Source: Pantoea eucrina (lineage in GTDB: Bacteria > Pseudomonadota > Gammaproteobacteria > Enterobacterales > Enterobacteriaceae). Taken from it: a DNA stretch of 64,000 nt. The notes below the pieces were generated by a model. The model made no database searches. It saw only the letters and a program-made list of their open reading frames with translations, and was not told where the DNA came from. Of this stretch, positions 1 to 12,141 are shown in pieces. Each line of letters starts with the position of its first letter. Position 1 is the first letter of the stretch. The stretch covers positions 1 through 64,000 of the forward strand of contig NZ_MIPP01000018.1 in NCBI RefSeq assembly GCF_002095385.1, in the 5' to 3' direction. Made by a program: the position numbers and the translations under genes.

Positions 1-2
1 CC

Positions 3-40
3 TGCGGGAGCCCCGCGCCGGCAGGCGCTGGGCTCCCGCA
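3..40. other. Long GC-rich hairpin at the left edge
   Basis: Arms 3-13 (TGCGGGAGCCC) and 30-40 pair perfectly. The interior GCGCC/GGCGC (15-19 with 24-28) extends the stem after one mismatch and leaves the 4-nt loop GGCA. No U-tract follows, so a simple terminator is unlikely. It sits upstream of the first leading-region repeat and could be part of a single-strand structure or the end of a gene to the left. Bases 41-190 show no gene. Confidence 0.5.
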
Positions 41-190
41 CCCACTGGTGAGTCTGTCTCACAGCGCTGATGATGCAGTTAAGCCGGTTTTTATGCAGCG
101 AACCAGGTTTTTGAGTCGGTTTTTTCACAAACCGGCTGCTGTTTTCGTTTGCTGATTCAGTCAGAGAGCAAACCAGAAAACTGACTTTGC

Positions 191-640
191 GCCCCCTTCG
201 GCTCCCCGGCAGGCCGGGTCGTCAAGCCCTATGTCGCTAAGCGGCAAGCCGCCAAGCGCCACCGAACCCCTGCGGGTTTCGGCCGCAAGCGGTTTCGGTC
301 TGATGTCCAGGTTCAACGGCTGCTGCCGGCTTCGCCGTTGCTTTCACCGTCCCGGCAAACTACGCCGGGCCTTTAAAGCCAGCCCGCGGGGCGGTCTGAA
401 ACATCCCTTCTGACGCTCCTCTGCCTTCCGGCCAGACCTTGCGCGGAGGGCTGGTCGTAGCACCGCCGGCTCAGGCAAAAAGGGGTGAAATGCACGCCGC
501 CAGAAACTTTTCGCCAGGGGACGCAAAAACTTTCAGTCGTCGCCCCTTTCTGCCCTCACTTCGTCGTTGCTCCTTTGCCCTTTGCCGCGAAAGGCCAGAC
601 CGGGAAGAAGAAACCCGCGTCAGAGAAAGTCTTTTTCGGG
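191..640 (+). repeat. Leading-region direct repeat, copy 1 (ssi/Frpo-like candidate)
   Basis: This non-coding GC-rich block matches 3974-4427 in the same orientation. The right-hand 260 bp (about 366-626) is nearly identical between copies, while the left third is looser. It contains several short hairpins and ends about 50 bp before the RadC-like gene that leads into psiB and psiA. In F and ColIb-P9 plasmids, repeated leading-region elements fold in single-stranded DNA and act as promoters (Frpo, ssi). Position, repetition and downstream genes fit that role, but the secondary structure was not computed. The ORFs that cross it are not conserved in frame between the copies and are judged non-coding. 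Confidence 0.7.
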
Positions 641-688
641 TCCGCAGCGCGAGCTGCAATTACTCAGCCGGATTTAAGGAGCCATGCC

Positions 689-1330
689 ATGCAAAACACA
701 CTCGTAAACGTCACCCCGGATTCAATCGCCGCCCGTGCGGCCGTTGAGATGATGTCCAGTCAGAACGAGCAGAACGCTGCCGACACTGCGACCGAATCCC
801 CCGGGCTTTGCCTGGAGAGCGTCAGTGATAACGTCCGTTTTTTCACCCGCCTTCAGATCCGTGATGCGCAGGGAAATTACGTTATGGCCACAGAGAGCCA
901 GATCCTGGAAGAAGCCGCGCGTGCTATCGATCATCGCTATCCCACCGGGACATTTTTTTCCTCATCTGAAGTATCTGCGGCTTTTTTCAGCGCAAAACTT
1001 GCCTGGCGCGAACGGGAAATTTTTGCGGTCGCTTTTCTGAATAATCAGCATCAGCTGCTTGCCTACGAAGAATTGTTTCAGGGATCTGTTTCAAGCGTCG
1101 AAATTCATCCTCGGGAGGTGGTGTACAGGGCGCTACAGCTTAACGCGTCGGCGGTTGTCGTGAGCCACAATCACCCCTCGTTTAAGAATGAACCATCCCG
1201 GGCAGACATCACGATAACCGGACGCTTGCAAAAGGCCCTTGAGCTGGTCGCTGTGCGCCTGATTGACCATATCATTGTGGCCGGGAACGAAACTGTTTCA
1301 CTGGCTGAGCGGGGGCAACTCAACGGGTAA
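689..1330 (+). CDS. RadC-like JAB/JAMM domain protein
   Basis: A 213-aa protein. The ATG at 689 is chosen because AAGGAG (676-681) sits 7 nt before it and the longer reading frame runs into the repeat. The C-terminal half carries the RadC/JAMM metal-binding signature SHNHPS followed by EPSRAD, with an upstream EELFQG segment. The N-terminal 60 residues are polar and not recognised. RadC-like proteins are frequent on plasmids and mobile elements; despite the name a direct repair role is not established, and the motif predicts a metalloprotease or isopeptidase fold. It is the first gene after repeat copy 1 and lies upstream of psiB and psiA. Confidence 0.85.
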   Translation: MQNTLVNVTPDSIAARAAVEMMSSQNEQNAADTATESPGLCLESVSDNVRFFTRLQIRDAQGNYVMATESQILEEAARAIDHRYPTGTFFSSSEVSAAFFSAKLAWREREIFAVAFLNNQHQLLAYEELFQGSVSSVEIHPREVVYRALQLNASAVVVSHNHPSFKNEPSRADITITGRLQKALELVAVRLIDHIIVAGNETVSLAERGQLNG

Positions 1331-1343
1331 CCGTTGCACCCTG

Positions 1344-1397
1344 GCTGGCAGGTTTTCCCCTGCCAGCGCCTCTTCCGGCCCGATACCCGGGCCGGAT
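1344..1397 (+). other. Two hairpins between the radC-like gene and psiB
   Basis: GCTGGCAGG (1344-1352) pairs with CCTGCCAGC (1359-1367). A second GC-rich hairpin, CCGGCCCG with CGGGCCGG, follows at about 1376-1397. Neither has a U-tract. They may slow transcription or stabilise the processed mRNA before psiB. Confidence 0.4.
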
Positions 1398-1425
1398 CTA
1401 TGCCCCTGAGACAGAGCTGAATCCC

Positions 1426-1872
1426 ATGACTCAAGAAGAAAAATTTACGCTTAACACCCTGCAGGCTTTCACCGCCTGCGATTTTGAAGCCTACCGCGAT
1501 CGGGGCGAAACCTTCCGTCAGCGCCTGACCGGGGCCGTTCTTTACGTGCTACAGCTGCCGGACTGCTGGCGCACTGACTGCGAGATGCGCGGCGAGTGGG
1601 GCGGGGCGTACCCGGTTCACCTGCGATTGACCCGCGCCGATGCGGCTGGACTTGCCGTCGAGCTGGTGAGTCCGTCGGCGACTTCGCCGCTGTGGAGTGT
1701 GGTACTTAACGATCTCCGCACCCGGTCCAGTGTACGGCTGTGCGTCAGCTACCGGTTTGAACCTGCGGTGATGCACGCCACGCTCAAAAAAATCACAGAG
1801 TACACGCGGGCGGGCTTCACTGGTGCCGGTGAGCTGGTCGCCGCGCTTCGGATGGGAGGGCACGCCGCATGA
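1426..1872 (+). CDS. psiB: PsiB, inhibitor of SOS induction during conjugation
   Basis: A 148-aa protein. PsiB binds RecA in the recipient and blocks its loading on the incoming single strand, preventing SOS induction. The N-terminal FTLNTLQAF, the central WGGAYPVHLRL and the overall length (F-plasmid PsiB is about 144 aa) match the family as remembered. The ATG at 1426 is 95 bp after the RadC-like gene. It overlaps psiA by 4 bp (ATGA), the usual psiB-psiA coupling. Its presence marks this part of the window as a conjugal leading region. Confidence 0.85.
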   Translation: MTQEEKFTLNTLQAFTACDFEAYRDRGETFRQRLTGAVLYVLQLPDCWRTDCEMRGEWGGAYPVHLRLTRADAAGLAVELVSPSATSPLWSVVLNDLRTRSSVRLCVSYRFEPAVMHATLKKITEYTRAGFTGAGELVAALRMGGHAA

Positions 1873-2621
1873 TCCCGAAATCACACGCACTGGTTACCCT
1901 GCTGCCTGAGCGTCAGGCCGCGCTTCAGGCCATTGCACTGGTCGAGCACGCGCAACAGCGCGGCACCCGGCTTGCTCGTCATCCTTACGCCGCCGCGTTT
2001 ATGAAGCAACTGAGTGGCAGGAGCCGCGTCAGTGTGCACGCACTGAACCGCATCCGGGGCATTTACCTGCGCCCGCGCGAAAAACGCGCGCCGCTGCCGG
2101 AGTGGGAAAGCGCCCTGGATGAGTTTCTCTGTTCGGCGGGTGAAGTGTGTCCGCTGCCATTGCCGGGCGAGCTGGCAACCGTTCTGTTTCCGGAGGCGGT
2201 TTTCCGCCGGGCAGAGCGTGCGAAACATGCTGCCGATAAGAGCGTTAACCACGTCACCCGGCGCGAACGGCAGGCGGCTGACTACCGGGAGCGCCAGCTG
2301 GAGAACCGAATCCGGCAGGCTGAAACAGAGCTGGCCTTCCGCACGCCGGACACGCTGCGCGGCTGGTTCGCCGCCTGGTGTGACAGCGTGCCGGAAAATG
2401 ATCTGAAGAACATGATCGCCGCGTGGGCGCGCCGGTTTCCGTCGCTGAACGGTCTGGAAACCCTGCAGCCGTACGCCGGAGACGTTGCCTGTGAGGTGGC
2501 GGGCGAAATTCACCTGCGGTCCCTGCACATGGACAGGGCGCAGAAAGACATGAACCGCTGGCTCATTCCTAACAAGCTGGCGGCAATATCTGTACCGGGT
2601 TTCATCAGGGATAATCGTTGA
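1869..2621 (+). CDS. psiA: PsiA, leading-region protein encoded with PsiB
   Basis: A 250-aa basic protein whose ATG overlaps the psiB stop in ATGA. SHALVTL near the N-terminus, HPYAAAF at about 38, GEVCPLPLPGE at about 92, and the ELAFRTPDT...WFAAWCDSV stretch resemble PsiA of F and IncI plasmids (about 240 aa). PsiA's biochemical role is unclear; it is always co-expressed with PsiB. A coiled, Arg/Gln-rich segment spans about 130-160. The stop lies just before the toxin-antitoxin promoter, so the toxin-antitoxin genes form a separate unit. Confidence 0.82.
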   Translation: MIPKSHALVTLLPERQAALQAIALVEHAQQRGTRLARHPYAAAFMKQLSGRSRVSVHALNRIRGIYLRPREKRAPLPEWESALDEFLCSAGEVCPLPLPGELATVLFPEAVFRRAERAKHAADKSVNHVTRRERQAADYRERQLENRIRQAETELAFRTPDTLRGWFAAWCDSVPENDLKNMIAAWARRFPSLNGLETLQPYAGDVACEVAGEIHLRSLHMDRAQKDMNRWLIPNKLAAISVPGFIRDNR

Positions 2622-2663
2622 ATCGTCCCCAACTAAGGGATATAATATCCCTTAGTTGGGGAC
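2618..2663 (+). promoter_or_regulatory. higBA promoter with embedded perfect palindrome
   Basis: Bases 2625-2663 form a perfect inverted repeat: 18-bp arms (GTCCCCAACTAAGGGATA at 2625-2642) around a 3-bp centre. A sigma-70 promoter overlaps it: TTGAAT at 2618-2623, a 17-bp spacer, then TATAAT at 2641-2646. The -10 box is at the dyad centre, so binding by the antitoxin would block RNA polymerase directly. The toxin ATG is 11 bp downstream of the palindrome. Confidence 0.85.
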
Positions 2664-2674
2664 AGGGAAAAACC

Positions 2675-3019
2675 ATGCACGCGACATTTATTGAGCTTTC
2701 CAGCTTTCAGAAATACCGGGCTGACTACCTGAACGACGATCAGTTCAGGCTGTTTCAGAATATGTTGCTGGCTGACCCCGAAAAGGGCGACGTGATCCCG
2801 GATACGGGTGGCCTGCGTAAAGTCCGGTTCAGGGACGAGCGCCGGAACAAAGGCACACGAGGCGGGATCAGGGTTATCTATTACTGGACGAACGAAAAAG
2901 GCCAGTTCATCCTGTTTACCATCTACGATAAGGATCAACGCGACGATCTGACCAAACAGCAGCGCGACGCCCTGGCGGAGGCGCTTAACGTGATTAAAAA
3001 GGGGCTGAGACATGACTGA
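2675..3019 (+). CDS. higB: RelE/HigB-type toxin (HigB-2-like)
   Basis: A 114-aa protein. The ATG at 2675 is the first after the operator, preceded by AGGGAA; an upstream in-frame start would translate through the operator. It matches the RelE/ParE-superfamily HigB-2 type: LRKVRF, a GGIRVIYYW strand and FTIYDKDQRDDLT near the C-terminus. Such toxins are ribosome-dependent mRNA endonucleases. The toxin-first order with an HTH antitoxin downstream is typical of higBA. The two genes overlap by 8 bp, so they are co-translated. Its role here is probably plasmid addiction. Confidence 0.85.
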   Translation: MHATFIELSSFQKYRADYLNDDQFRLFQNMLLADPEKGDVIPDTGGLRKVRFRDERRNKGTRGGIRVIYYWTNEKGQFILFTIYDKDQRDDLTKQQRDALAEALNVIKKGLRHD

Positions 3020-3326
3020 ACGTGACATTTTCAGTGAGCTGATGACGGGCATGCAGGAGCTGAGAGATCACCAGGACGGGAAAATCACGCTCAAGACTTA
3101 CAAGGTCAGCAAGCGTGCACCTGTCACTATCGAGCCGCAGGAGCTGCGCGACGTGCGCGAAAAACTTAACCTGTCACAGGCGGTTTTCGCACACTATCTG
3201 CATACGGGCGAGACCACCTATCAGAACTGGGAGCAGGGCAGAGCCAAGCCTAACGCTCAGGCCGTCCTGCTGATCCGCATGGTTCAGCAGAACCCGGACA
3301 CGCTGCGGACGCTCGCGCAGCTGTAA
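3012..3326 (+). CDS. higA: HigA-type antitoxin, XRE helix-turn-helix
   Basis: A 104-aa protein. Residues about 50-95 form an XRE/Cro-type HTH: RDVREKLNLSQAVFAHYL, then TYQNWEQGRAKPN. The N-terminal 45 residues should wrap the toxin. It should neutralise the RelE-like toxin and repress through the 39-bp palindrome at 2625-2663. The start overlaps the toxin stop by 8 bp. Confidence 0.85.
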   Translation: MTERDIFSELMTGMQELRDHQDGKITLKTYKVSKRAPVTIEPQELRDVREKLNLSQAVFAHYLHTGETTYQNWEQGRAKPNAQAVLLIRMVQQNPDTLRTLAQL

Positions 3327-3404
3327 CGCGGATCCATACGATATTCCCGGCATCTGCATAAGACGATATTGGCGCTGCCTGACCGCGCGGCGCGAGAGAA
3401 GACG

Positions 3405-3803
3405 ATGATGAGTTTTTTAATGCTGGGTCCCCTGCTAAGCCTGGGTTATGCGCTGGTTTTTCAGTTCCTGGCGCCGGGCGAGACAGGCAGCCTGACATAC
3501 TGGTGCGGCTACGCGATGTGCTTCGTGGTGGCGCGCTTGCTGGCCGCAAAGCACCCGCAGCCAGCGGGTGACTGGTTAGTGATGAAACTTCTTGCGATGA
3601 TCGTTCCTGCAGGGGGCGTATTTCTGTGCGTCTGGGGCGGTATGAACCTGCTGGCTGACCCGGCGGCGGGCGGACAGGAAGACGCTGACATCATGCTGTA
3701 CTCTGCATCCCACGGGCTGCTGCTGCCGCTTTTTTCCATGATAATGGGTGCGGCCATTGTGGCGGTTTCGCTGTACCGCATAAGATTGCGCGCGCAGGGA
3801 TAA
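3405..3803 (+). CDS. Small inner-membrane protein of unknown function
   Basis: A 132-aa protein, using the ATG-ATG at 3405/3408 after GAGAGAAGACG. A start at 3369 would add 12 polar residues. Hydrophobic spans occur near residues 3-20, 30-45, 58-80 and 105-125, so four membrane helices are likely. No family is recognised. It follows the toxin-antitoxin genes by about 80 bp and precedes repeat copy 2. A leading-region accessory role is only positional inference. Confidence 0.55.
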   Translation: MMSFLMLGPLLSLGYALVFQFLAPGETGSLTYWCGYAMCFVVARLLAAKHPQPAGDWLVMKLLAMIVPAGGVFLCVWGGMNLLADPAAGGQEDADIMLYSASHGLLLPLFSMIMGAAIVAVSLYRIRLRAQG

Positions 3804-3973
3804 CATTCGCGGCTATGCCGGTAAAAACCTGAGCTGACGCACCGGCTTTCTTCCGTCGCATGCGCTTACTCATATGAGACAGGCGTCTCTCTGTCCTGCT
3901 CTCTTTATTCCTGCTGTTGTGCTTCTGCCATTTCTCTCCTGAAATAATACACACCCGTACGTTACGGGCCATG

Positions 3974-4427
3974 GCCCCCTTCGGCTCCCCGGCAAGCCGG
4001 GTCGTCGAGCCCCACTCCGCTAACCGGCAAAGCCGGCAAGCTCCGCCGGACCGCAAAGGACCGCGTTCCGGGCCTGACGGCTAGGGTCTGATGGCAAAGG
4101 TCAACGGCAGCTGCCGGCTTCGCCGTCGCTTTCACCGTCCCGGCGAACCCCGCCGGGCCTTTAAGGCCAGCCCGCAGGGCGGTCTGAAACGTCCCTTCTG
4201 ACGCTCCTCTGCTTTCCGGCCAGCCCTTGCGCGGAGGGCTGGTCGTAGCACCGCCGGTTCAGGCAGAAAGGGGTGAAATGCACGCCGCCAGAAACTTTTC
4301 GCCAGGGGCCGCAAAAACTTTCTGTCGTCGCCCCTTTATGCCCTCTCTTCGTCGTTGCTCCTTTGCCCTTTGCCGCGAAAGGCCAGACCGGGAAGAAGAA
4401 ACCCGCGTCAGAGAAGGGCTTTTCGGG
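3974..4427 (+). repeat. Leading-region direct repeat, copy 2 (ssi/Frpo-like candidate)
   Basis: This is the second copy of the block at 191-640. In the last 130 bp only a handful of substitutions separate the two. It again ends about 50 bp before an ATG with a good ribosome site (4476). Near-identity of non-coding sequence, while the genes downstream differ, argues for selection on the DNA or RNA structure itself. The 170 bp before it (3804-3973) hold no gene. Confidence 0.7.
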
Positions 4428-4475
4428 CACCGCGCGGCGGTCAGCCGGATCATTAATTTCAGACAGGAGCACATC

Positions 4476-5015
4476 ATGACTTCAACCCAGAACGGCACCA
4501 CCACTGAAATGCGCTGCGTAGCGGCGCTGGGTGACGGCGCATTTACGCGCGAGCAGGCCAGAAACATCGCGGCAGCCTTCACCAACGTCTTCATTGAAGA
4601 CGATCAGGGCAGCCATCTTCGTCTGGTCGTGCGCGAGCCGTCAGGCAGCCTTATCTGGCGCGCTTTCAGCTTTGAGCATGACGCCGGTTACTGGCTGCGC
4701 AAATACATTAACAGCCGGGGCATGCGTCAGCCTTTGCATGATCAGCTGACGAAGCTGACTGATCTGAATGACGTTCCGATGACGCTCAAACAGCGCCGTG
4801 AATTTATGACGCATATCATCAGTAAATTAGCTGAGTCGGTGGCGCATCAGGTGCCGGAAAATTCAGTAGTGCTTCCGGCTGAGCTGTCAGAAGTCTGGGC
4901 GGAGGCGGGCCGTATTTCGCTGAAATATTTCGGGCTTCATGGTGAAAAGGCGTGGCTCAGGGCGAGCCAGTGGATGACCACTGAGCTGGAGCAGGGCGGC
5001 AACGCACAGGCGTAA
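4476..5015 (+). CDS. Leading-region protein of unknown function
   Basis: A 179-aa protein. The ATG at 4476 follows ACAGGAGC at 8-nt spacing; the longer upstream frame crosses repeat copy 2 and is rejected. The sequence is soluble and mildly acidic, with no signal peptide or membrane span. [18 protein letters not shown] at about 52-70 and a helical C-terminal half are visible. No family is recognised with confidence. Its position directly behind a second ssi-like element suggests early expression in the recipient, as for antirestriction or anti-SOS proteins. A terminator follows immediately. Confidence 0.7.
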
Positions 5016-5042
5016 AAAAAGCAGGGTAGCCCCTGCTTTATT
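5016..5042 (+). terminator. Rho-independent terminator
   Basis: AAAGCAGGG (5018-5026), loop TAGC and CCCTGCTTT (5031-5039) form a 9-bp hairpin flanked by A5 and followed by a short T-rich tail. It begins right after the stop codon of the preceding gene. The A/T flanks are symmetrical, so it could act in both directions. Confidence 0.75.
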
Positions 5043-5100
5043 CACGGCGGCCAGTTCGGGCTGGCTGCCTTATCAAAGACCAGATACATAGGATAGTAAT

Positions 5101-5325
5101 ATGATTTTCGACCCGCAAATCGTCGCACATGCGCTGCGTTTTGTAAATGCCTTACGCACCGGCCAGCTGGCGCACGTGCCCGCCATGCCTTTTGCCCTGT
5201 GGCAGCAGTTTATGACCACAGTAAACACCCTGATGGAGGCGCAGCATGAGCATCACAACGCCCCTGAATCTGCCTTTAGCGCTGGAAACTGTAACACAGA
5301 ACGAGATCATCCGCGTGCTGGGTGA
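5101..5325 (+). CDS. Possible small plasmid protein overlapping the next gene
   Basis: A 74-aa frame. The N-terminal 45 residues (QIVAHALRFVNALRTGQLAHV, then FALWQQFMTTVNTLMEA) look like a genuine amphipathic helical protein. The last 27 residues overlap the next gene out of frame, where the composition becomes less protein-like. The ribosome site (AGGATAG) is weak. Either it is a real short gene with an 80-bp overlap, or a protein whose true stop has been lost. Function unknown. Confidence 0.45.
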   Translation: MIFDPQIVAHALRFVNALRTGQLAHVPAMPFALWQQFMTTVNTLMEAQHEHHNAPESAFSAGNCNTERDHPRAG

Positions 5326-5818
5326 GTACACCTTTATCCGCCTGGATAACGGCGATGAAGCGTTTTATCACCACGGAAAGTGGATCACCGGCGCAGACGC
5401 GAGCTGCGGCGAGCCTTCCGTATTAGGGCTGGCGAAAAGCATGGCGCGGGCGGGATGTAAGTCTCTTCGTTCCCTCGAATTGCCTGTCCCGGATGATAAG
5501 GAGTGGGGCTGGGACGACGTGGTAAAGCAGCTGGTTTGTGCGTCTTATCCGCGTAATGTACGCGGAGAACTGATCGTCACGGTTAGCGAAAATACCCGAT
5601 ACGGTCGCGGCATGCACGTCTGCTCAGATCCGCTGCTGAGCGGGATTAACAGTAACCTCTGGTTTCCGCTGAACGCGGAAGAAGACTGGCACGCAGGCAT
5701 AGAGCGAGTGCTGACCATGAACGGCGTTGCAGAGAACGTGGTGCGGCTGGAGCCATTGCGGGACGGTCCTGAATACACTGATTTTAAGGTGATTTACAAC
5801 CGCAAAGTCTGCGCCTGA
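5246..5818 (+). CDS. Leading-region protein of unknown function
   Basis: A 190-aa protein starting at an ATG preceded by GGAGG at 5235-5239. Recognisable segments are IRVLGEYTFIRLDNGDEAFY near the N-terminus and VSENTRYGRGMHVCSDPLL in the middle. No membrane segment or signal peptide. The mid part (WGWDDVVKQLVCASYP) suggests an alpha/beta fold, but no family is recognised. Base composition matches the neighbouring leading-region genes, and it shares their orientation. Confidence 0.7.
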   Translation: MSITTPLNLPLALETVTQNEIIRVLGEYTFIRLDNGDEAFYHHGKWITGADASCGEPSVLGLAKSMARAGCKSLRSLELPVPDDKEWGWDDVVKQLVCASYPRNVRGELIVTVSENTRYGRGMHVCSDPLLSGINSNLWFPLNAEEDWHAGIERVLTMNGVAENVVRLEPLRDGPEYTDFKVIYNRKVCA

Positions 5819-5906
5819 TGCGCAGAGGGGCCGGAGTAAATCTGGCCCCATGACGTTGTTTTTCCTGTCGCATTCTGAACATCACAGCATTACAGAGGTC
5901 TTCACA

Positions 5907-6254
5907 ATGAAATCTGAATCCATCAACTTACTGACCGCTTCAACTTCTAAAAATATATTCACAATCCTTGATTTACAGGCACTTTCACAACGGGCAGAAG
6001 CTTCTGAAAAGGTAAACGATAAAGCCCGGCGCATCAGCCTGGCTGCATCCGCACTGCTGAATTTTGCAGACCAAACGGGGATCGGAAACAGTACCGAACC
6101 GGCAGAGACTGCTGTCACCGATCTTCTGACAGACTTTATGCACTTATGTGCGCATTGCTGGCCGGAAGAAAATAAAATATCTTTTGACAGCGCACTGAAA
6201 ACCGCCCGTATGCACTTTGCTACAGAATCCGATGAAACCGCACAGTGGGACTGA
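5907..6254 (+). CDS. Small plasmid protein of unknown function
   Basis: A 115-aa protein. The ATG at 5907 is preferred over 5850 because AGAGG lies about 10 nt upstream and the extra 19 residues are not protein-like. It is Ser/Thr/Ala-rich and helical, with DFMHLCAHCWPEE near residue 78. It is slightly more AT-rich than the genes before it. It is the last intact rightward gene before the oriT region. Function unknown. Confidence 0.6.
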   Translation: MKSESINLLTASTSKNIFTILDLQALSQRAEASEKVNDKARRISLAASALLNFADQTGIGNSTEPAETAVTDLLTDFMHLCAHCWPEENKISFDSALKTARMHFATESDETAQWD

Positions 6255-6259
6255 ATAAA

Positions 6260-6461
6260 ATGAAAATTACCATCATGGATATTTCGGAAGCTATGAACAG
6301 TTAACCCGAAGGGTAAGCCGATCTTCTGGCAAGGTTCAACGTCTGCCATTGATATTGAGAAATTCCGGCAGGTAATCGTAATACCGGCCGGATATTTTCA
6401 TGAGAGAGGTTGGTTATCCTGCGATGTAGTTTTTTGCTGTGCCGGATCAGACTTACGCTGA
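6260..6461 (+). pseudogene. Possible decayed small gene
   Basis: An ATG at 6260 opens MKITIMDISEAMNS and stops. In another frame from 6303 the sequence continues plausibly as GKPIFWQGSTSAIDIEKF to a TGA at 6459-6461. Together they look like one small protein broken by an indel. The 3' part overlaps the opposite-strand gene at 6398-6721. Evidence is weak and the family is unknown. Confidence 0.2.
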
Positions 6462-6721
6462 AGTCGTTTTTTCTTGCCACTTCCCTCGTTTACCACAGCA
6501 GAAATTGCTTTCTCACTGAAACGAAAGTTCATGGCATCCAGTGCCGACTTGATATCCGCTACCGTATAACCTTTCTCTTTTGCCAGTACCAGAATGGTGT
6601 CTTTAAGATTTTCCAGTGCGCCCTCTCTCGTTATGCGCTGAGGCGTTAAATCGGGTAGATTTTCCAGCTTTCTGCGCGCCTCATCCAGTTCCTGCTGCGT
6701 GAAAACATTACGTGCCGCCAT
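6398..6721 (-). CDS. oriT-adjacent small protein, leftward
   Basis: A 107-aa basic protein. The ATG at 6721 has an AAGGAA ribosome site; a start at 6775 would add 18 residues. The N-terminus QQELDEARRKLENLP is helical. A central segment LAKEKGYTVADIKSALDAMNF looks like a DNA-binding helical pair, and the tail is Lys/Gln-rich. It is transcribed leftward from the oriT side, divergent from nikA. A regulator or relaxosome accessory is plausible from position, but no family is recognised with confidence. Confidence 0.65.
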   Translation of the reverse strand: MAARNVFTQQELDEARRKLENLPDLTPQRITREGALENLKDTILVLAKEKGYTVADIKSALDAMNFRFSEKAISAVVNEGSGKKKRLQRKSDPAQQKTTSQDNQPLS

Positions 6722-6847
6722 TTCAGTTTCCTTCTTATTGGTAAAGGGCCGATTTTGCTGGATTTTTATTACCATTTCCAGCCTATCATTCCGTATGACG
6801 CCGGTTTACTTCTGAACAGGCAAGTGGCAAAATACCTTTTACAGTTT

Positions 6848-6894
6848 AAAACATCGGACAGGAAATGTTTTGTGACCACCGCCAGCATGCTGGC
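6848..6894. other. Candidate oriT nic region
   Basis: AAAACAT (6848-6854) and ATGTTTT (6865-6871) form an inverted repeat around a 10-nt loop. Read on the minus strand, the loop and right arm give TTTCCTGT, close to the MOBP nic consensus YATCCTGY; cleavage would fall between 6859 and 6858. A perfect palindrome, GCCAGCATGCTGGC, lies at 6881-6894. The site is between the divergent small gene and nikA-nikB, as in IncI1. Nicking on the minus strand would send 6850 to 1 into the recipient first, consistent with psiBA lying there. Confidence 0.5.
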
Positions 6895-6962
6895 AGTGAT
6901 TCTCAAAACGACCTGCTCAGGGCTTCCGCCCCGAGACCCGGATAATGCGCAGAGGTTGGGTT

Positions 6963-7304
6963 ATGTCGAAAAGCGAAAAGCGTCAGAGGGAAAAACTGGT
7001 TAAATGCCGCTGCAACGAAGCAGAGTATGAAGCCATCCTGAAAAAGGCTGCAGCAGCGGGACTTACAACGTCTGAGTACCTGCGCCGCACCGCTCTGAAC
7101 CGCCGCATTACGGTGCGTACGGATATCCGGATGATGAACGAACTTCTCCGCCTGGGAGGTCTGCAAAAGCACCTCTATACCCAGATGAAGGACAACATGA
7201 CAACCGAACTCAGCCAGCAGTTTTCCGGCGTACTGACCAGCATCACTCACGCCATCAATGCGCTTGATATGGCGCCGGTTCCTGCAGAGGACATTAAGGA
7301 CTGA
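6963..7304 (+). CDS. nikA: NikA/MobC-type relaxosome accessory protein
   Basis: A 113-aa basic protein. The ATG at 6963 follows AGAGG; an ATG at 6945 is also possible. The N-terminal ribbon-helix-helix region (CRCNEAEYEAILKKAAAAGL, then TTSEYLRRTALNRRI) and the RTDIRMMNELLRLGGLQKHLY stretch resemble NikA of IncI1 plasmid R64. NikA binds oriT and recruits the relaxase. The stop overlaps the start of the relaxase gene (TGATG), so the two are co-translated. Confidence 0.8.
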   Translation: MSKSEKRQREKLVKCRCNEAEYEAILKKAAAAGLTTSEYLRRTALNRRITVRTDIRMMNELLRLGGLQKHLYTQMKDNMTTELSQQFSGVLTSITHAINALDMAPVPAEDIKD

Positions 7305-9264
7305 TGAACGTCATCATCCCGCCAAAACGTCGCGACAAAAAGACCAGCTTCAGAAAGCTCGTTGAATACGTCAGCACGCGCGAAGAAAACAAAAATGCCG
7401 AACAGGTGAAGCCTGAATCTGCGCATACTTCGGATGCCGGTCCTGCAGCGACTCCCGGGTTTGGCCAGCTGGTTGACTACGTGGGCCGTAAGAACGCATC
7501 ACCCGCTTCTGAAATTATCAGCATTTCACCTGAGGGCATTCAGCGCGTGCTTTCAGGTGAAGTGCTGTGCGAAACCAACTGCTTTTCGCTTGAAGCCGCA
7601 GCGTCAGAAATGAACATGACCGCGATGCAGAACCGCCACTGTAAGGATGCGGTTTATCACTTTATTCTCTCGTGGCAGAGCGACGAAAATCCTTCTCCTG
7701 ACGCCGTCTTTACCTCAGTGCGCTACAGCATGGCGCAGCTGGGGATGGCAGATCATCAGTACGTTGCCGCGATTCATAAAGATACCGATAACGTTCACTG
7801 TCACGTGTCCGCTAACCGCGTTCATCCGGTCACGTTCCGCGCACAGAATATGTGGAACGATGCAGACACGCTGCAGAAAGCCTGCCGCGTGCTGGAGCGC
7901 GATTTAGGCTTCAACGTGGACAACGGCAGCTGGGAAATGAGCGGGGACGGCAGCCTGTACCGCACGCGTCGTGCGCTGCCTTCAGCGCCGCGCGGCGCAG
8001 CTAAAAGAGAAATCTTTTCCGATAAGGAAAGCCTTCACGCTACGCCGTTCGCGAGACGCGTCAGATGATCAGCGACCTGTCCGAAGAGGGCAGTCTCAGC
8101 TGGCCGCTGCTTCACAACGTCATGTATACACGCGGGCTTGGCGTGCGGGAACAGAACGGCGGCCTCGCCGTTTTCGATCTGCTCAATCCTGACAGCATCA
8201 GCGTGAAAGCATCAGACATTCATCCGGCTATCGGTCTGCAGGCGATGGAAGCAAAGCACGGCAGTTTCCTGCCCGCACCGCCCGCATCCGACCCGGAAAA
8301 TCATGAGGCCGGCATGCTCATGGTTGATAAGTTTTATCTGCCGCAGCTGCACGTCCGTGACGGAGAGGCCCGCCGTGAACGTCGCGAAGCGAGAGCCGTT
8401 GCCCGCGACATCCTGCGCACGCGCTATGATGCTTATCGCGCCGGCTGGGAAAGACCCGACCTGCGCGCGGGCGAACGCTTCCGGCAGATATCCGCTCACT
8501 GCGTGGCTACGAAGGCGAACGTGCGTCAGGCCGTCCGGGATCCGCTGATGCGCAGGCTGATGTATCGGGTTGCTGAGTTTGAGAAGATGAAGGCAGCAGC
8601 AAAGCTGAGACTGCAGCTGCGTGAAGAGCGGCAGACGCTGAAAGAAACCGGACAGGCGCGTCACCTGACCTGGAAGTCGTGGGTTGAACAGGAAGCGCTT
8701 AACGGCGACGTCGCCGCAATCAGTCAGATGCGCGGATGGGCCTATCGTGAAAAGCGTGCAGCGTCGAAACGTCAATCTGCCTGGCCGGAGCCAAACGCTG
8801 TTATTCATTTCGGGCCGGCTGAAGACGTACCGACATTCAAATCCAGCGCGCATGACACAGCGTTATTACGAGACGGTACGGTGACCTATCTGCGCGACGG
8901 TAAACCTGCAGTAACCGACTTTGGCAACAGGGTTGAGGTTTACGCAGCCGCTGACGCAGCGTCTGACCGTCATAACAACGATCTGGCTGCCGAACTGATT
9001 GCCTGGCGCAGCGGTGAGAATACTGTTTTACAGGGGGACCCGGCTGCCGTTAACCGCGTGCTTTATGCCGGCGCGGTGAGAAACGTCACGAAACGGGACG
9101 AACATTCTTTCAGCGTCAGCGATCAGCAGCACATGGCAAACGTGCGCGCAACTGAGCGTCATCTGAGCGGTCAGGACGTCAGGGCGGAAGCAAGTCATAC
9201 TGAATATCAGAGCAGGATGGACGATGCAGTCCGTCCGTTACCTAAAGATTTACCACGACCGTGA
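7304..9264 (+). pseudogene. nikB: NikB-like MOBP relaxase, interrupted by a frameshift
   Basis: The first frame (7304-8068) encodes the N-terminal relaxase domain, with KRRDKKTSFRKLVEYVS near the start and the histidine motif HKDTDNVHCHVSANRVHP, expected for metal-dependent oriT cleavage. The match to R64 NikB continues to FSDKESLHA, then the frame shifts. From about 8041 the protein resumes one frame over as YAVRETRQMISDL and runs to 9264, including RRERREARAVARDILRTRYDA. One missing base at about 8039-8041 explains it. Restored, it would be about 653 aa, shorter than the roughly 900 aa of R64 NikB, which has an extra central segment. It may be a true pseudogene or an assembly error. No coupling protein or type IV secretion genes are visible. 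Confidence 0.82.
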
Positions 9265-10206
9265 GGAGAGTAATAGCGAAGACATAACTCAAACTGAAGT
9301 ACTTAGTCGCTGATTGCACAGGCTGAACCCCTCTACAACCAGCTAACCATTACAACCTGTTGAGGAGCTGCCATGGCTGCCGTGGATCCTATTCATTTGA
9401 AGCTGTTTACAAGTTATTTCCTAGCGTTATTAAAAATTAGGTTACTAAAATAAACCGGTATTGTGCAGGAGCTAATTTTTTTATGCTGGTAAGTCTAAGA
9501 TGTAGCGCCAATATATTAATATTTCCCGATGCTTAATGGTGTTTTTAATATTTTCGATCTCTAATCAATTAGGGTGTTATCAAATGGCTTAATTTTTTTC
9601 TCGCCGATAAGTTTGAATTATTAGGGGGTTGGGTTTTTTGTTTTTTTGTCAACATCTTGCTGTTCTTGATATTTTTTTGATTTTTTTATTCGTCCCATCA
9701 GTTATAGGTTTTTTTTATTTTTTATTTATTTTCAATGTGCTGAATCCTAATATCCAAGCCTTGTTCCTATATACATTATTATAAAGTGGTTTGGTTTTTT
9801 TTAATTTCTTACTAATTTCAATGGTGTTAATAATAAACATGAAGATCAATAAAGCGCTTGGTTAGTTTTGTTGTTATATATTTTATTTGGCTTTATGTTT
9901 ATTATGGTTTTTATTTTAACTTATTGAAATTCTGTAAAGCTAAGGGGGTGGCAGAAATTACCTTTAAAATGGAGTTATTAATTATGAATTCAATCATAGA
10001 AGTGCGTAGGTAAAAGGATGTTTTATTAACTCACGTGTTAAGTTGAAGGTGGTTTGAATTTATTTATGATTGGTGGCGGCATCATATCTAATTATAATGT
10101 TTTAAGTGCTGCCATTGCCATTATGAAATTTCCCCCTTTATGTTAGCGAAATTGAATTTATCAAGGCGATAGTTCATTCTCGCCTTGATACCTGTACCAG
10201 TTGTTA
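9265..10206. other. AT-rich gene-free stretch
   Basis: About 940 bp, strikingly T-rich on the plus strand from about 9400, with no convincing coding frame on either strand, no terminal inverted repeats and no tandem array. It separates the mobilisation module from the accessory genes. It could be decayed foreign DNA, an H-NS-bound spacer or a recombination scar. The only GC-normal part is 9265-9390. Confidence 0.6.
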
Positions 10207-11142
10207 TTAACTTAATAAACGGGGATCTTTGAGCAAATGCTTCTTTGCCGGCGCGGTAATAATGCCGAGGCAGACGACGATCAGACTGACACCTGCCCAG
10301 CCGGCAAAGGGCAGCCTTTCACCCACCAGCAGAACCGCCAGCAACGCCGCAATCACCGGTTCGAGCAGGGTGATGGTGGTGGCCATGCTGGCGGGGATAC
10401 GCGCCAGGCCATAGCCGTAGCAGAGATAGCCGACAAACATCGGGATCAGGGCCATGTAGATCCCGACAGCCGCAGTGTTCCAGCTCGCCAGTAGCGGAGC
10501 ACCCGTCATAAACAGTACGGGCATCAGCAGGATGCCGCCCGCACCAAACGTTGCTCCCATGGCCGCGCCGGATGCCACACCCGCCTGCATCAGGCGTCGC
10601 GCCGACCACGAATAGAACGCGTAGGTAAACCCTGCCAGCAGACCCAGAGCGATACCGCTCAGGGCGTGTTCGTTGCCGGCAGCCTCAGCCTCTCCGCTGC
10701 TCTGCGCCAGGCAGAGCAGTATCATTCCGGCGATCCCCGGCACTGCGCCGCACAGCCACTGCTTTGTCAGGCGCCCGCCGTCGAAGCGATACTCAATCAG
10801 AGCTGAAAGAAGCGGAGCCGAACCAATCGAAATCACCGTGCCAGTTGTGACGCCGGCATAACGCATTGAGGCATAGAAGGCAAGGGGATACACGGCAACC
10901 GCGAGCGCGCCGGTGACCAGAAAGTGCCACTGTGCGGCAATAAGCCGGCGCTGACGAAGAAGTGTGCCAGCCGCAATAAGCCCCTGTAATAAACCGCCGA
11001 TGCCCATCGCTACGGCCCCAATCGCCAGCGGACTCAGCTCAGGGGCGAAGGTAGCCGCCGTGCCGGTGGTACCCCAGAGGATGGCGGCCACCAGCACGCC
11101 CGTTATGCCGCCCAGCCGTTGTCCCGATGAAAGCATCAGCAC
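10207..11142 (-). CDS. EamA/DMT-family exporter
   Basis: A 311-aa inner-membrane protein with ten predicted helices in two EamA repeats. Typical repeat signatures are AAILWGTTGTAATFA near residue 18 and SMATTITLLEPVIAALLAVLLVGERL near 250. Drug/metabolite transporters of this type export amino acids or small metabolites; the substrate cannot be read from sequence. It overlaps the upstream TetR gene by 7 bp, so both are one transcription unit under the palindrome at 11741-11774. Induction by the exported compound is the likely logic. Confidence 0.85.
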   Translation of the reverse strand: MLMLSSGQRLGGITGVLVAAILWGTTGTAATFAPELSPLAIGAVAMGIGGLLQGLIAAGTLLRQRRLIAAQWHFLVTGALAVAVYPLAFYASMRYAGVTTGTVISIGSAPLLSALIEYRFDGGRLTKQWLCGAVPGIAGMILLCLAQSSGEAEAAGNEHALSGIALGLLAGFTYAFYSWSARRLMQAGVASGAAMGATFGAGGILLMPVLFMTGAPLLASWNTAAVGIYMALIPMFVGYLCYGYGLARIPASMATTITLLEPVIAALLAVLLVGERLPFAGWAGVSLIVVCLGIITAPAKKHLLKDPRLLS

Positions 11143-11735
11143 GCCTCCATCATCTGTTCAGCCATCGCGCGGGCCTGTGCCACACAGTGACTGCTCCCTT
11201 CCAGGCCTGCCCGGGAGATGCTGCCTTCCAGCAGGAAGGCGAAATGCTTTGCCACCAGGCCGGCATTTTTTTCCTCTCCGTGTATCAGCTCAGCCAGATG
11301 CGAAGCCAGAATCGCTTCAACTTCCTCTTTGTGTTCACGTACAGCCTGGCGTCCCGGTGCTCCGGCAGGCAACTCTGCAGCGGCATTCAGCAGCCCGCAG
11401 CCGCGAAAGCCGTGTTCATAAGCATACTCAGCGTGATCTTCATACGCTTTAAAGACGGCCAGAACCCGCTCCCGGGGCGTCGTAGCGATCTGACGCCGCT
11501 TTTCATACAGCGCCAGCCACTCTTCATGCCGCACCCTGAGATAAGCCGCTACCAGTTCATCTTTAGAGGCAAAGTTGTTGTACAGGCTTTTCTTTGCGAC
11601 GCCAGCCCGTTTCACAATCGCATCAATGCCTGTGCCGCCTATTCCGTGGTTGTAAAAAAGAATGCGTGCGGCGTTGAGCAGCTTTTCATAAGCCGTTTCT
11701 GAATCAGCAGACTGTTGCGTCATTGTCAGCCCCAA
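11136..11735 (-). CDS. TetR/AcrR-family repressor of the DMT exporter
   Basis: A 199-aa protein. The N-terminal HTH is clear: ILFYNHGIGGTGIDAIVKRAGVAKKSLYNNFASKDELV at about residues 20-60. The C-terminal ligand domain is of the type seen in TetR regulators of efflux. A 34-bp perfect palindrome starts 6 bp upstream of its start codon, so it should autoregulate and repress the exporter translated from the same message. Confidence 0.88.
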   Translation of the reverse strand: MGLTMTQQSADSETAYEKLLNAARILFYNHGIGGTGIDAIVKRAGVAKKSLYNNFASKDELVAAYLRVRHEEWLALYEKRRQIATTPRERVLAVFKAYEDHAEYAYEHGFRGCGLLNAAAELPAGAPGRQAVREHKEEVEAILASHLAELIHGEEKNAGLVAKHFAFLLEGSISRAGLEGSSHCVAQARAMAEQMMEAC

Positions 11736-11740
11736 TGGCG

Positions 11741-11774
11741 TTGTGAGTAGGTAGACTAGTCTACCTACTCACAA
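11741..11774. promoter_or_regulatory. 34-bp perfect palindrome, TetR operator
   Basis: Arms of 17 bp (TTGTGAGTAGGTAGACT at 11741-11757) are perfectly repeated in inverse at 11758-11774 with no spacer. It sits immediately before the TetR-family start codon. The inner GTAGACTAGTCTAC resembles TetR-family operators. Confidence 0.85.
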
Positions 11775-11856
11775 GTGTATGGCAACCCCAGGAGGCATTC
11801 AGCGGAGTGAATGACTTTTTTATCCCGTTAACAAAGGGCAGGCGGAAAAAAGTGAA

Positions 11857-11882
11857 TACAAAACAGCCCGCAAAAGCGGGCT
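11857..11882 (-). terminator. Terminator for the leftward ycgZ-like gene
   Basis: AGCCCGC (11865-11871), loop AAAA, GCGGGCT (11876-11882). On the minus strand the stem is followed by GTTTTGT, and it lies 20 bp beyond the stop of the 79-aa gene. Confidence 0.65.
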
Positions 11883-11901
11883 GGCAGCATGATTAATGTT
11901 A

Positions 11902-12141
11902 TTAACGGCCAAACAGCATAGCGAGCAGCTCGCGCAGATGCGCAGCCTCTACGGCATCCTCGGTGCTGTCCAGCCAGCCGATCAATTTAAGGCACACTGC
12001 AGTTCGGGTAAGACGTCGCTCCTGACGAAGGATTTCGACAGTGATCCTGCCCAGCATTTCAATCTGGCAGGGGTGCGTTACCCTGCTGAAGTAGCCAGTC
12101 AGCCCGATTGTATTTTCAGAAGGCAGTCCGTCCTGGCGCAT
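11902..12141 (-). CDS. YcgZ-like small protein (paralogue 1)
   Basis: A 79-aa protein in the YcgZ/YmgA/AriR family. LTGYFSRVTHPCQIEMLGRITVEILRQERRLTRTAVCLKL follows the same pattern as the YcgZ-like protein at 12575. In E. coli these small proteins are blue-light/cold induced through BluR-BluF and act on the Rcs phosphorelay, raising colanic acid and lowering curli. It is divergent from its paralogue across a 430-bp regulatory region and carries its own terminator. The function here is inferred from the family only. Confidence 0.75.
   Translation of the reverse strand: MRQDGLPSENTIGLTGYFSRVTHPCQIEMLGRITVEILRQERRLTRTAVCLKLIGWLDSTEDAVEAAHLRELLAMLFGR

Follow-up and report, generated by a model that had tools for sequence, protein, structure and literature searches.

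Two non-coding direct repeats near the start of a 64,000-nucleotide stretch of Pantoea eucrina DNA (RefSeq assembly GCF_002095385.1, contig NZ_MIPP01000018.1, positions 1 to 64,000; hereafter the window) are very likely homologues of the Frpo/ssi class of elements. They lie in the leading region of a plasmid with an IncI1-like NikA/relaxase layout, and we predict that both are promoters active on single-stranded DNA (ssDNA). The assignment rests on homology, fold, covariation, orientation and gene context. Such elements are known in kind; what may be new is an extra conserved module, module A, and its two-module arrangement with the promoter hairpin, module B.

Two repeats precede different gene sets

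By repeat search and blastn, copy 1 spans 191-640, before the radC-psiB-psiA-toxin/antitoxin genes, and copy 2 spans 3974-4427, before the DUF905 genes; both are read on the minus strand. They are 88.4% identical over 456 nt (one joined blastn match), and the repeat search gives an ungapped core (290-589 and 4078-4377) with 92% identity over 300 nt and a segment (191-247 and 3974-4030) with 88%. Position 1 of the window is base 1 of the contig (C18), and the sequence 5' of copy 1 is limited to the contig start.

The initial annotation described two non-coding direct repeats of about 450 bp, nearly identical over their last 260 bp and ending about 50 bp before separate gene sets. This description holds. 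The list of open reading frames (ORFs) contains no gene-like ORF inside either repeat, the overlapping ones being short or extending into downstream genes. The hairpin part is 95.7% identical between the copies, the upstream part 78.2%, and the distance from the repeat end to the ATG is 49 nt in both (640 to ATG 689, 4427 to ATG 4476). The same annotation treated each repeat as one element, and here it has to be revised, as two separately conserved modules are present instead.

With copy 2 as blastn query against the 3.89-Mb genome, the two repeats are the sole matches (E up to 0.001). Among 72,556 plasmid records, 4,212 match copy 2 (E up to 1e-5), and many of the 60 listed matches cover just its upstream 174 nt. 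A 271-nt part of copy 2 has matches in 20 of 246 genomes of the family, the own genome counted. The five weak Rfam 15 matches in window positions 1-12000 (E up to 5) all fall outside the repeats. A consensus scan detects no sigma-70-like site within the repeats or between the repeats and the genes.

Module B is a covarying hairpin

The minus strand of both copies folds better than 100 of 100 and 200 of 200 dinucleotide shuffles, so the structure of the repeats exceeds chance. Module B occupies 409-624 in copy 1 and 4193-4418 in copy 2, both on the minus strand. For 4189-4420 in copy 2, the minus strand reaches -65.1 kcal/mol (z -6.0, 200 shuffles) and the plus strand -50.6 kcal/mol (z -2.7). 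In copy 1, the minus strand of module B forms a long imperfect hairpin with a z-score of -4.6 (200 dinucleotide shuffles). The shared stable minus-strand fold that had been proposed as a check is thus found in both copies, and it covaries across 27 sequences.

These 27 sequences were aligned from 46 elements found, after near-duplicates and elements that were short or diverged had been removed. In the resulting 65-pair structure 89.7% of the cells are paired, and 132 cells are changed on both sides. Shuffling gives a mean of 46.9 such cells (0 of 500 shuffles reach 132), and sliding the structure gives 14-39. The helix of columns 37-48 with 145-156 is paired in 95.9% of cells and is among the least variable. 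It contains GGTGCTAC, an extended-10-like motif that is invariant in all 27 elements and pairs with GGAGCAAC, and most of the helices around it vary with compensation. This pattern would be expected if the GGTGCTAC helix were read by a protein and the remaining helices needed pairing only. In the window, an extended -10-like sequence, GGTGCTACGAC, lies in the 3' arm of each hairpin (454-464 and 4242-4252, minus strand), with a putative -10 role.

Pairs chosen without G-T pairing, and therefore common to both strands, were used to ask which strand folds. On the transferred strand (T-strand), taken below to be the minus strand, 54 G.T cells stand against 13 A.C cells. Counted by pair the ratio is 18 to 4 (sign test p 0.004, although pairs and sequences are not independent), and the background transition ratios are 0.78-1.73. 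An asymmetry above background favours folding of module B as the T-strand.

Homology to Frpo and ssi elements

Relatives were searched with an nhmmer profile and a covariance model, R1, from the training of which F and ColIb-P9 were excluded. A profile built from the two window copies only ranks F Frpo1 first (E 9e-6) and two ColIb-P9 elements next (3e-4 and 0.004). After iteration, F Frpo1 and Frpo2 are found with 1e-10 and 2e-5, and the three ColIb-P9 elements with 1e-6, 1e-6 and 1e-5, while the best control has an E of 0.38 in the second round and 1.4 in the last.

In all, the R1 search covered 68 of the 99 kb of F (up to 68.5 kb) and 73 kb of ColIb-P9 (from 20 kb onwards). It scores 75.5 and 57.8 bits in F and 64.5, 62.6 and 61.1 bits in ColIb-P9, all on the T-strand (E 4e-13 to 1e-17), with no other convincing site in this sequence. 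Three weak opposite-strand matches (E 0.007-0.05) were seen, of which one is next to Frpo2 and the other two coincide with the hairpins just listed. At E up to 1, R1 matches nothing in a separate 141-kb set that consists of phage G4, part of R100, 48 kb each of F and a Raoultella plasmid, and 28 kb of ColIb-P9, the F and ColIb-P9 stretches being counted in the totals above. In the window the two copies are the sole matches (424-607, 193.5 bits; 4212-4395, 198.5 bits; both training sequences).

All 30 T-strand matches with E below 1e-8 lie 31-119 nt before the ATG of a gene in the same direction. They come from 11 sources (F, ColIb-P9, L003, L036-L039, L041-L043 and the window); 12 of them are training sequences, and five gene starts were taken from tblastn, one being a truncated DUF905. 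A twelfth source, the Serratia entomophila plasmid L040, has no R1 match with E below 1e-8; unfiltered, it has eight matches with E below 0.5, and three of these (E 0.014, 0.1 and 0.3) immediately precede leading genes on the T-strand. Among relatives outside the training set, R1 scores 199 bits before DUF905 in Pantoea wallisii (L106) and 188 bits in P. rodasii (L107). Erwinia persicina (L105) has none, its contig starting 58 nt before DUF905.

R1 matches occur in 28 of the 246 family genomes, the own genome counted. Among 274 genomes class-wide, only the own genome matches, at strict filters and with a listing that holds only two other families of the order, so we claim no spread beyond the family.

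The minus strand is probably the transferred strand

The oriT region (6776-6962, minus strand, 187 nt) aligns with the oriT of ColIb-P9, sharing the minus-strand TCCTG/TCC. It also aligns with four other plasmids, including the inverted repeat and TCCTG/TCC; L040 differs there. The nick presumably falls between 6859 and 6858, going by what we take to be the IncI1/IncP nic consensus. On this alignment and consensus, the minus strand would be the one transferred. It would be nicked with its 5' end running from 6858 towards 1, and hence the orientation argument of the initial annotation, with genes pointing towards oriT and the minus strand as their template, holds: the leading genes are on the plus strand and point to oriT, and the layout of leading genes, oriT, NikA and relaxase is the same as in ColIb-P9.

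The oriT region sits between a minus-strand gene (6398-6775) and the gene of a NikA-like relaxosome protein (6963-7304, plus strand, PF21983, E 6.8e-24). The former is at the mobC position of relatives, where it is annotated MobC, and has no Pfam match above the cut-off. A MOBP-type relaxase gene follows at 7304-9264 (plus strand) in two frames, 7304-8068 and 8065-9264, corresponding to residues 1-246 and 247-653 of an Erwinia homologue. Either the gene appears to be broken here, or the break would be an assembly error.

Between 6254 and 6398, a 419-nt stretch present in P. wallisii L106 is missing, near the site of a third element in Pantoea sp. SS70. A remnant third element at 6319-6346 was considered and rejected: 6251-6400 matches ordinary DNA of relatives, and neither R1 nor R2, the model of module A, matches at 6319-6346.

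Module A is separately conserved

Module A is the upstream half of each repeat and covaries separately. It lies at 190-309 (R2 match 106.8 bits) and 3973-4097 (122.1 bits), both on the minus strand and both training sequences, 115 nt to the T-strand 3' side of each promoter match. In copy 1 it forms three main hairpins with compensatory changes. The alignment comprises 31 of 41 collected sequences (29 distinct), in which 28 pairs are kept in 94.9% of the cells and 16 pairs are changed on both sides. In total 91 cells are changed on both sides, compared with 25.8 when shuffled and 0-13 when slid.

A module A profile made without F and ColIb-P9 finds the module before two of the three ColIb-P9 elements (E 6e-21 and 4e-17) and nothing in F 48-68.5 kb. 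With R2, 38 sources yield 45 matches, of which 42 have E below 1e-11; training sequences or near copies make up most of these. The Citrobacter plasmid L043 and the searched part of F (68 of 99 kb) have none, and the 141-kb set gives one match with E 0.92. The module is present in the fetched plasmids of Klebsiella, Raoultella, Enterobacter, Pantoea, Erwinia and Serratia, and R2 matches occur in 29 of the 246 family genomes, the own genome counted. An R1 site lies within 400 nt of 34 of the 64 R2 sites, always on the same strand and the same side, with a spacing of 113-180 nt and none reversed. Rfam has no family matching module A. In the literature searched, which did not extend to Masai and Arai 1997, Bates 1999 and Nasim 2004, we found no description of a separate upstream module.

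Some relatives carry module A in other settings. In L040 it is clear at 2785-2918 and 10000-10126 (92 and 105 bits, training sequences), while the promoter hairpin has diverged almost past recognition, so that in this plasmid module A is conserved better than the promoter. Weak single module A-like sequences (33.6-49.1 bits) were seen at G000:C2:131032-131140 (L101 3033-3141) and in L100, L103 and L071. They are outside recognisable leading regions, in L103 before an operon that by eye looks sorbitol-type and in L100 beside McrC-like genes.

The two modules of copy 1 have different closest relatives. Its hairpin, so similar to that of copy 2, is only 82.1% identical to the same-position hairpin of Pantoea sp. 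SS70. Its module A is 93.3% identical to the same-position copy of SS70 and 93-94% to same-position copies in other plasmids, against 78.2% to copy 2. The pattern suggests that the promoter module has been converted from copy to copy, and conversion of that module alone best explains the near-identity of the last 260 bp.

Proposed mechanism and alternative explanations

According to our model, nicking at oriT would send the minus strand into the recipient 5' end first, and each module B would form a long, imperfectly paired hairpin whose tip is rich in A+T. For the host RNA polymerase, the 5' arm of the hairpin would be the template and the 3' arm the non-template strand. Transcription would run towards oriT, through radC-psiB-psiA and the toxin/antitoxin genes from copy 1, and through DUF905 and two further genes from copy 2. 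The transcript may double as a primer for the second strand, whose synthesis would abolish the fold and turn the promoter off. Module A would act on the entering single strand as well, for instance as a start or loading site for the complementary strand, a role that we favour but regard as unproven. Recognition by the polymerase, timing, priming and the role of module A are the parts that we infer. In its wider form the proposal is tentative, and we would sooner expect it to need revision than to stand: many enterobacterial leading-region elements would be two-part single-strand devices, in which a Frpo-type promoter is combined with module A as a distinct ssDNA signal that is exchanged independently.

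Several results weigh against these proposals. Pairwise blastn gives the repeats E 0.011 over 35 nt with F Frpo1 and 0.003 over 68 nt with ColIb-P9, so both miss the cut-off of 1e-6 to a known element that serves in PMC11541004 as an operational criterion; this is a rule for detection and does not define the class. The alignment to F Frpo and ColIb-P9 ssi suggested by the initial annotation succeeds with the profile and R1, for two F and three ColIb-P9 elements, and plain blastn yields short, weak matches only. The -10/-35 hexamers are also weak. In a scan of the 3' arm the best score is 6 in both window copies (in copy 2, for example, TTTCTG-16-TACGAC, 5/12 plus the extended-10 TG), while all five F and ColIb-P9 elements score 7, the top-scoring -35 boxes of each including TGGACA, TGGACT or TGGACG.

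For module A, copy 2 alone has a z-score of -1.3, and 20 of 200 shuffles fold as well; with an energy so near to that of shuffles, the claim is carried by covariation and not by energy. Its strand counts, 5 G.T to 3 A.C, single out no strand. At strict filters, no partner is seen for 30 of the 64 sites of module A and 27 of the 61 of module B. A renewed search of twenty stretches brought a partner to six of the 30 lone R2 sites, one of these being truncated at a contig end, and 18 that were examined stayed without one; judged by eye, some lone sites are before leading-type genes and some in apparently chromosomal genes. Finally, with the relaxase split across frames, self-transfer of this plasmid copy may be impaired.

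Another explanation, which we consider unlikely, is that the elements are mainly complementary-strand initiation sites (ssi), with primers made by RNA polymerase or by a primosome at module A and gene expression secondary. Frpo transcripts do act as primers of DNA synthesis in vitro, according to passages of PMC7690428 and PMC7736820, and module A is a separate conserved fold adjoining the promoter. Against this, all 30 checked elements lie shortly before a gene, F has working Frpo elements and yet no module A in the sequence searched, and neither phage G4 nor the R100 oriR stretch contains a match to module A. A priming site of the G4 or R100 oriR type was rejected for module A, as R2 has no match in G4 or in R100 83000-94281 and blastn against G4 and R100 oriR gives short chance matches only. 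TTAGCGG in module A resembles only what we take to be the hexamer of phiX174-type primosome assembly sites.

The fold could also act as RNA, as a leader or attenuator in the plus-sense transcript, or as a double-stranded DNA terminator. The plus strand does fold too, the G.T/A.C counts leave the strand of module A undecided, and a terminator-like stem lies at 3953-3969 on the minus strand, just outside copy 2. We nevertheless regard this as highly improbable, given that the asymmetry in module B favours the minus strand, that the T-strand fold is better by 14.5 kcal/mol, and that a terminator scan, which sees short stems only, finds no site in either repeat. Moreover, F Frpo1 and Frpo2 are required for early expression in recipients, as described in parts of PMC9849209. 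The least probable account denies the repeats a promoter function and sees in them palindromic or recombination sequences that are dispersed and kept alike by gene conversion. Conversion does occur between the copies, and the weak single module A-like sequences are outside recognisable leading regions. Three things speak against it: all 30 checked elements sit before genes and in their direction, the genome survey shows no reversed module arrangement, and the homology is to experimentally shown promoters.

Reading the repeats as single-strand promoters matters because such promoters determine which plasmid genes a new host expresses first, those for anti-SOS and anti-restriction functions among them. 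One covariance model finds the elements of F, ColIb-P9 and the window jointly and so points to genes of the early set. If the two-part proposal is true, module A could be, for example, a loading site from which the second strand is begun, with the promoter switched off as a result. It offers a concrete, deletable target for the conversion of the entering strand to duplex and the shut-off of early expression.

Genes downstream of the repeats

The initial annotation had psiB and psiA following copy 1. Both are there, on the plus strand, with Pfam matches (PsiB, an SOS inhibitor, 1426-1872, E 6.4e-39; PsiA, 1869-2621, E 1.3e-44), but the first gene after copy 1 encodes a RadC-like JAB-domain protein (689-1330, plus strand, Pfam RadC E 5.8e-40). 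A radC/JAB gene heads the psiB-psiA set in the plasmids of Pantoea sp. SS70 and P. deleyi as well; its position is occupied by a putative methylase in an Erwinia LA637 plasmid and by a DUF4942 gene in a P. agglomerans plasmid. A likely toxin/antitoxin pair follows (2675-3326, plus strand), consisting of a RelE-like protein (2675-3019, E 0.0018, below the Pfam cut-off) and an MqsA/helix-turn-helix antitoxin (3012-3326). Their relatives in SS70 are annotated as a toxin and an MqsA family antitoxin. No ssb was recognised from copy 1 to oriT.

The proteins at 4476-6254, proposed to be undescribed, are so in part. The first after copy 2 (4476-5015, plus strand) is a DUF905 protein with a C-terminal extension, identified by Pfam and tblastn and related to the DUF905 proteins of F (46%) and ColIb-P9 (51%). 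The F gene follows ssb and, judged by gene order, is probably yfjA, which places the window protein in the family of F YfjA. Early expression of YfjA depends on Frpo2, according to parts of PMC9849209. In passages of PMC12826799, DUF905 is often near psiB and psiA, and Frpo is carried by 74% of PsiB plasmids. The other two proteins belong to unnamed families with relatives near such elements in other genomes: 5246-5818 (plus strand) has no match in family searches, and 5907-6254 (plus strand) is phrog_3963, of unknown function. AlphaFold models are poor for 5246-5818 (mean pLDDT 57.6) and the DUF905 protein (50.5), with three close sequences each.

Comparison with known systems

The origin of the complementary strand in phage G4 is folded ssDNA with several hairpins. 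Module A resembles it in this respect, but the models find no match there.

Earlier surveys (PMC11541004, PMC12826799), in their passages on method, search for such promoters with BLAST, using 5 to 18 sequences, known or putative, as queries. The former reports 13,089 Frpo-homologous promoters found in this way, and its main text has no word starting with Pantoea, Erwinia, radC or JAB. Frpo itself is described as a 328-bp region in part of PMC7690428.

The window elements share with F Frpo1 and Frpo2 the leading-region position, a T-strand hairpin of equal length, the tip sequence, and the occurrence of two copies before different gene sets, one with DUF905 and psiB. They differ from F in a pairwise identity too low for plain blastn, in the GGTGCTACG motif, which is absent from the aligned arms of F, and in module A, which was not found in 68 of its 99 kb. 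In addition, F Frpo2 precedes ssb, a gene not recognised here between copy 1 and oriT.

The IncF plasmids of Klebsiella (L038), Raoultella (L041) and Enterobacter (L039) have modules A and B before leading genes, with up to four R1 matches per fetched region. Unlike this plasmid they have F-type transfer systems, and module B of L041 scores just 58-62 bits.

IncI plasmids have three ssi operons, according to part of PMC10104558. ColIb-P9 (IncI1) has three elements and this contig two, and its first genes are ssb, a hypothetical gene and a DUF4942 gene, where the window has radC and DUF905. The two nevertheless share the same promoter hairpin (61-64.5 bits in ColIb-P9), module A before two of the three ColIb-P9 elements, and the oriT-NikA-relaxase layout.

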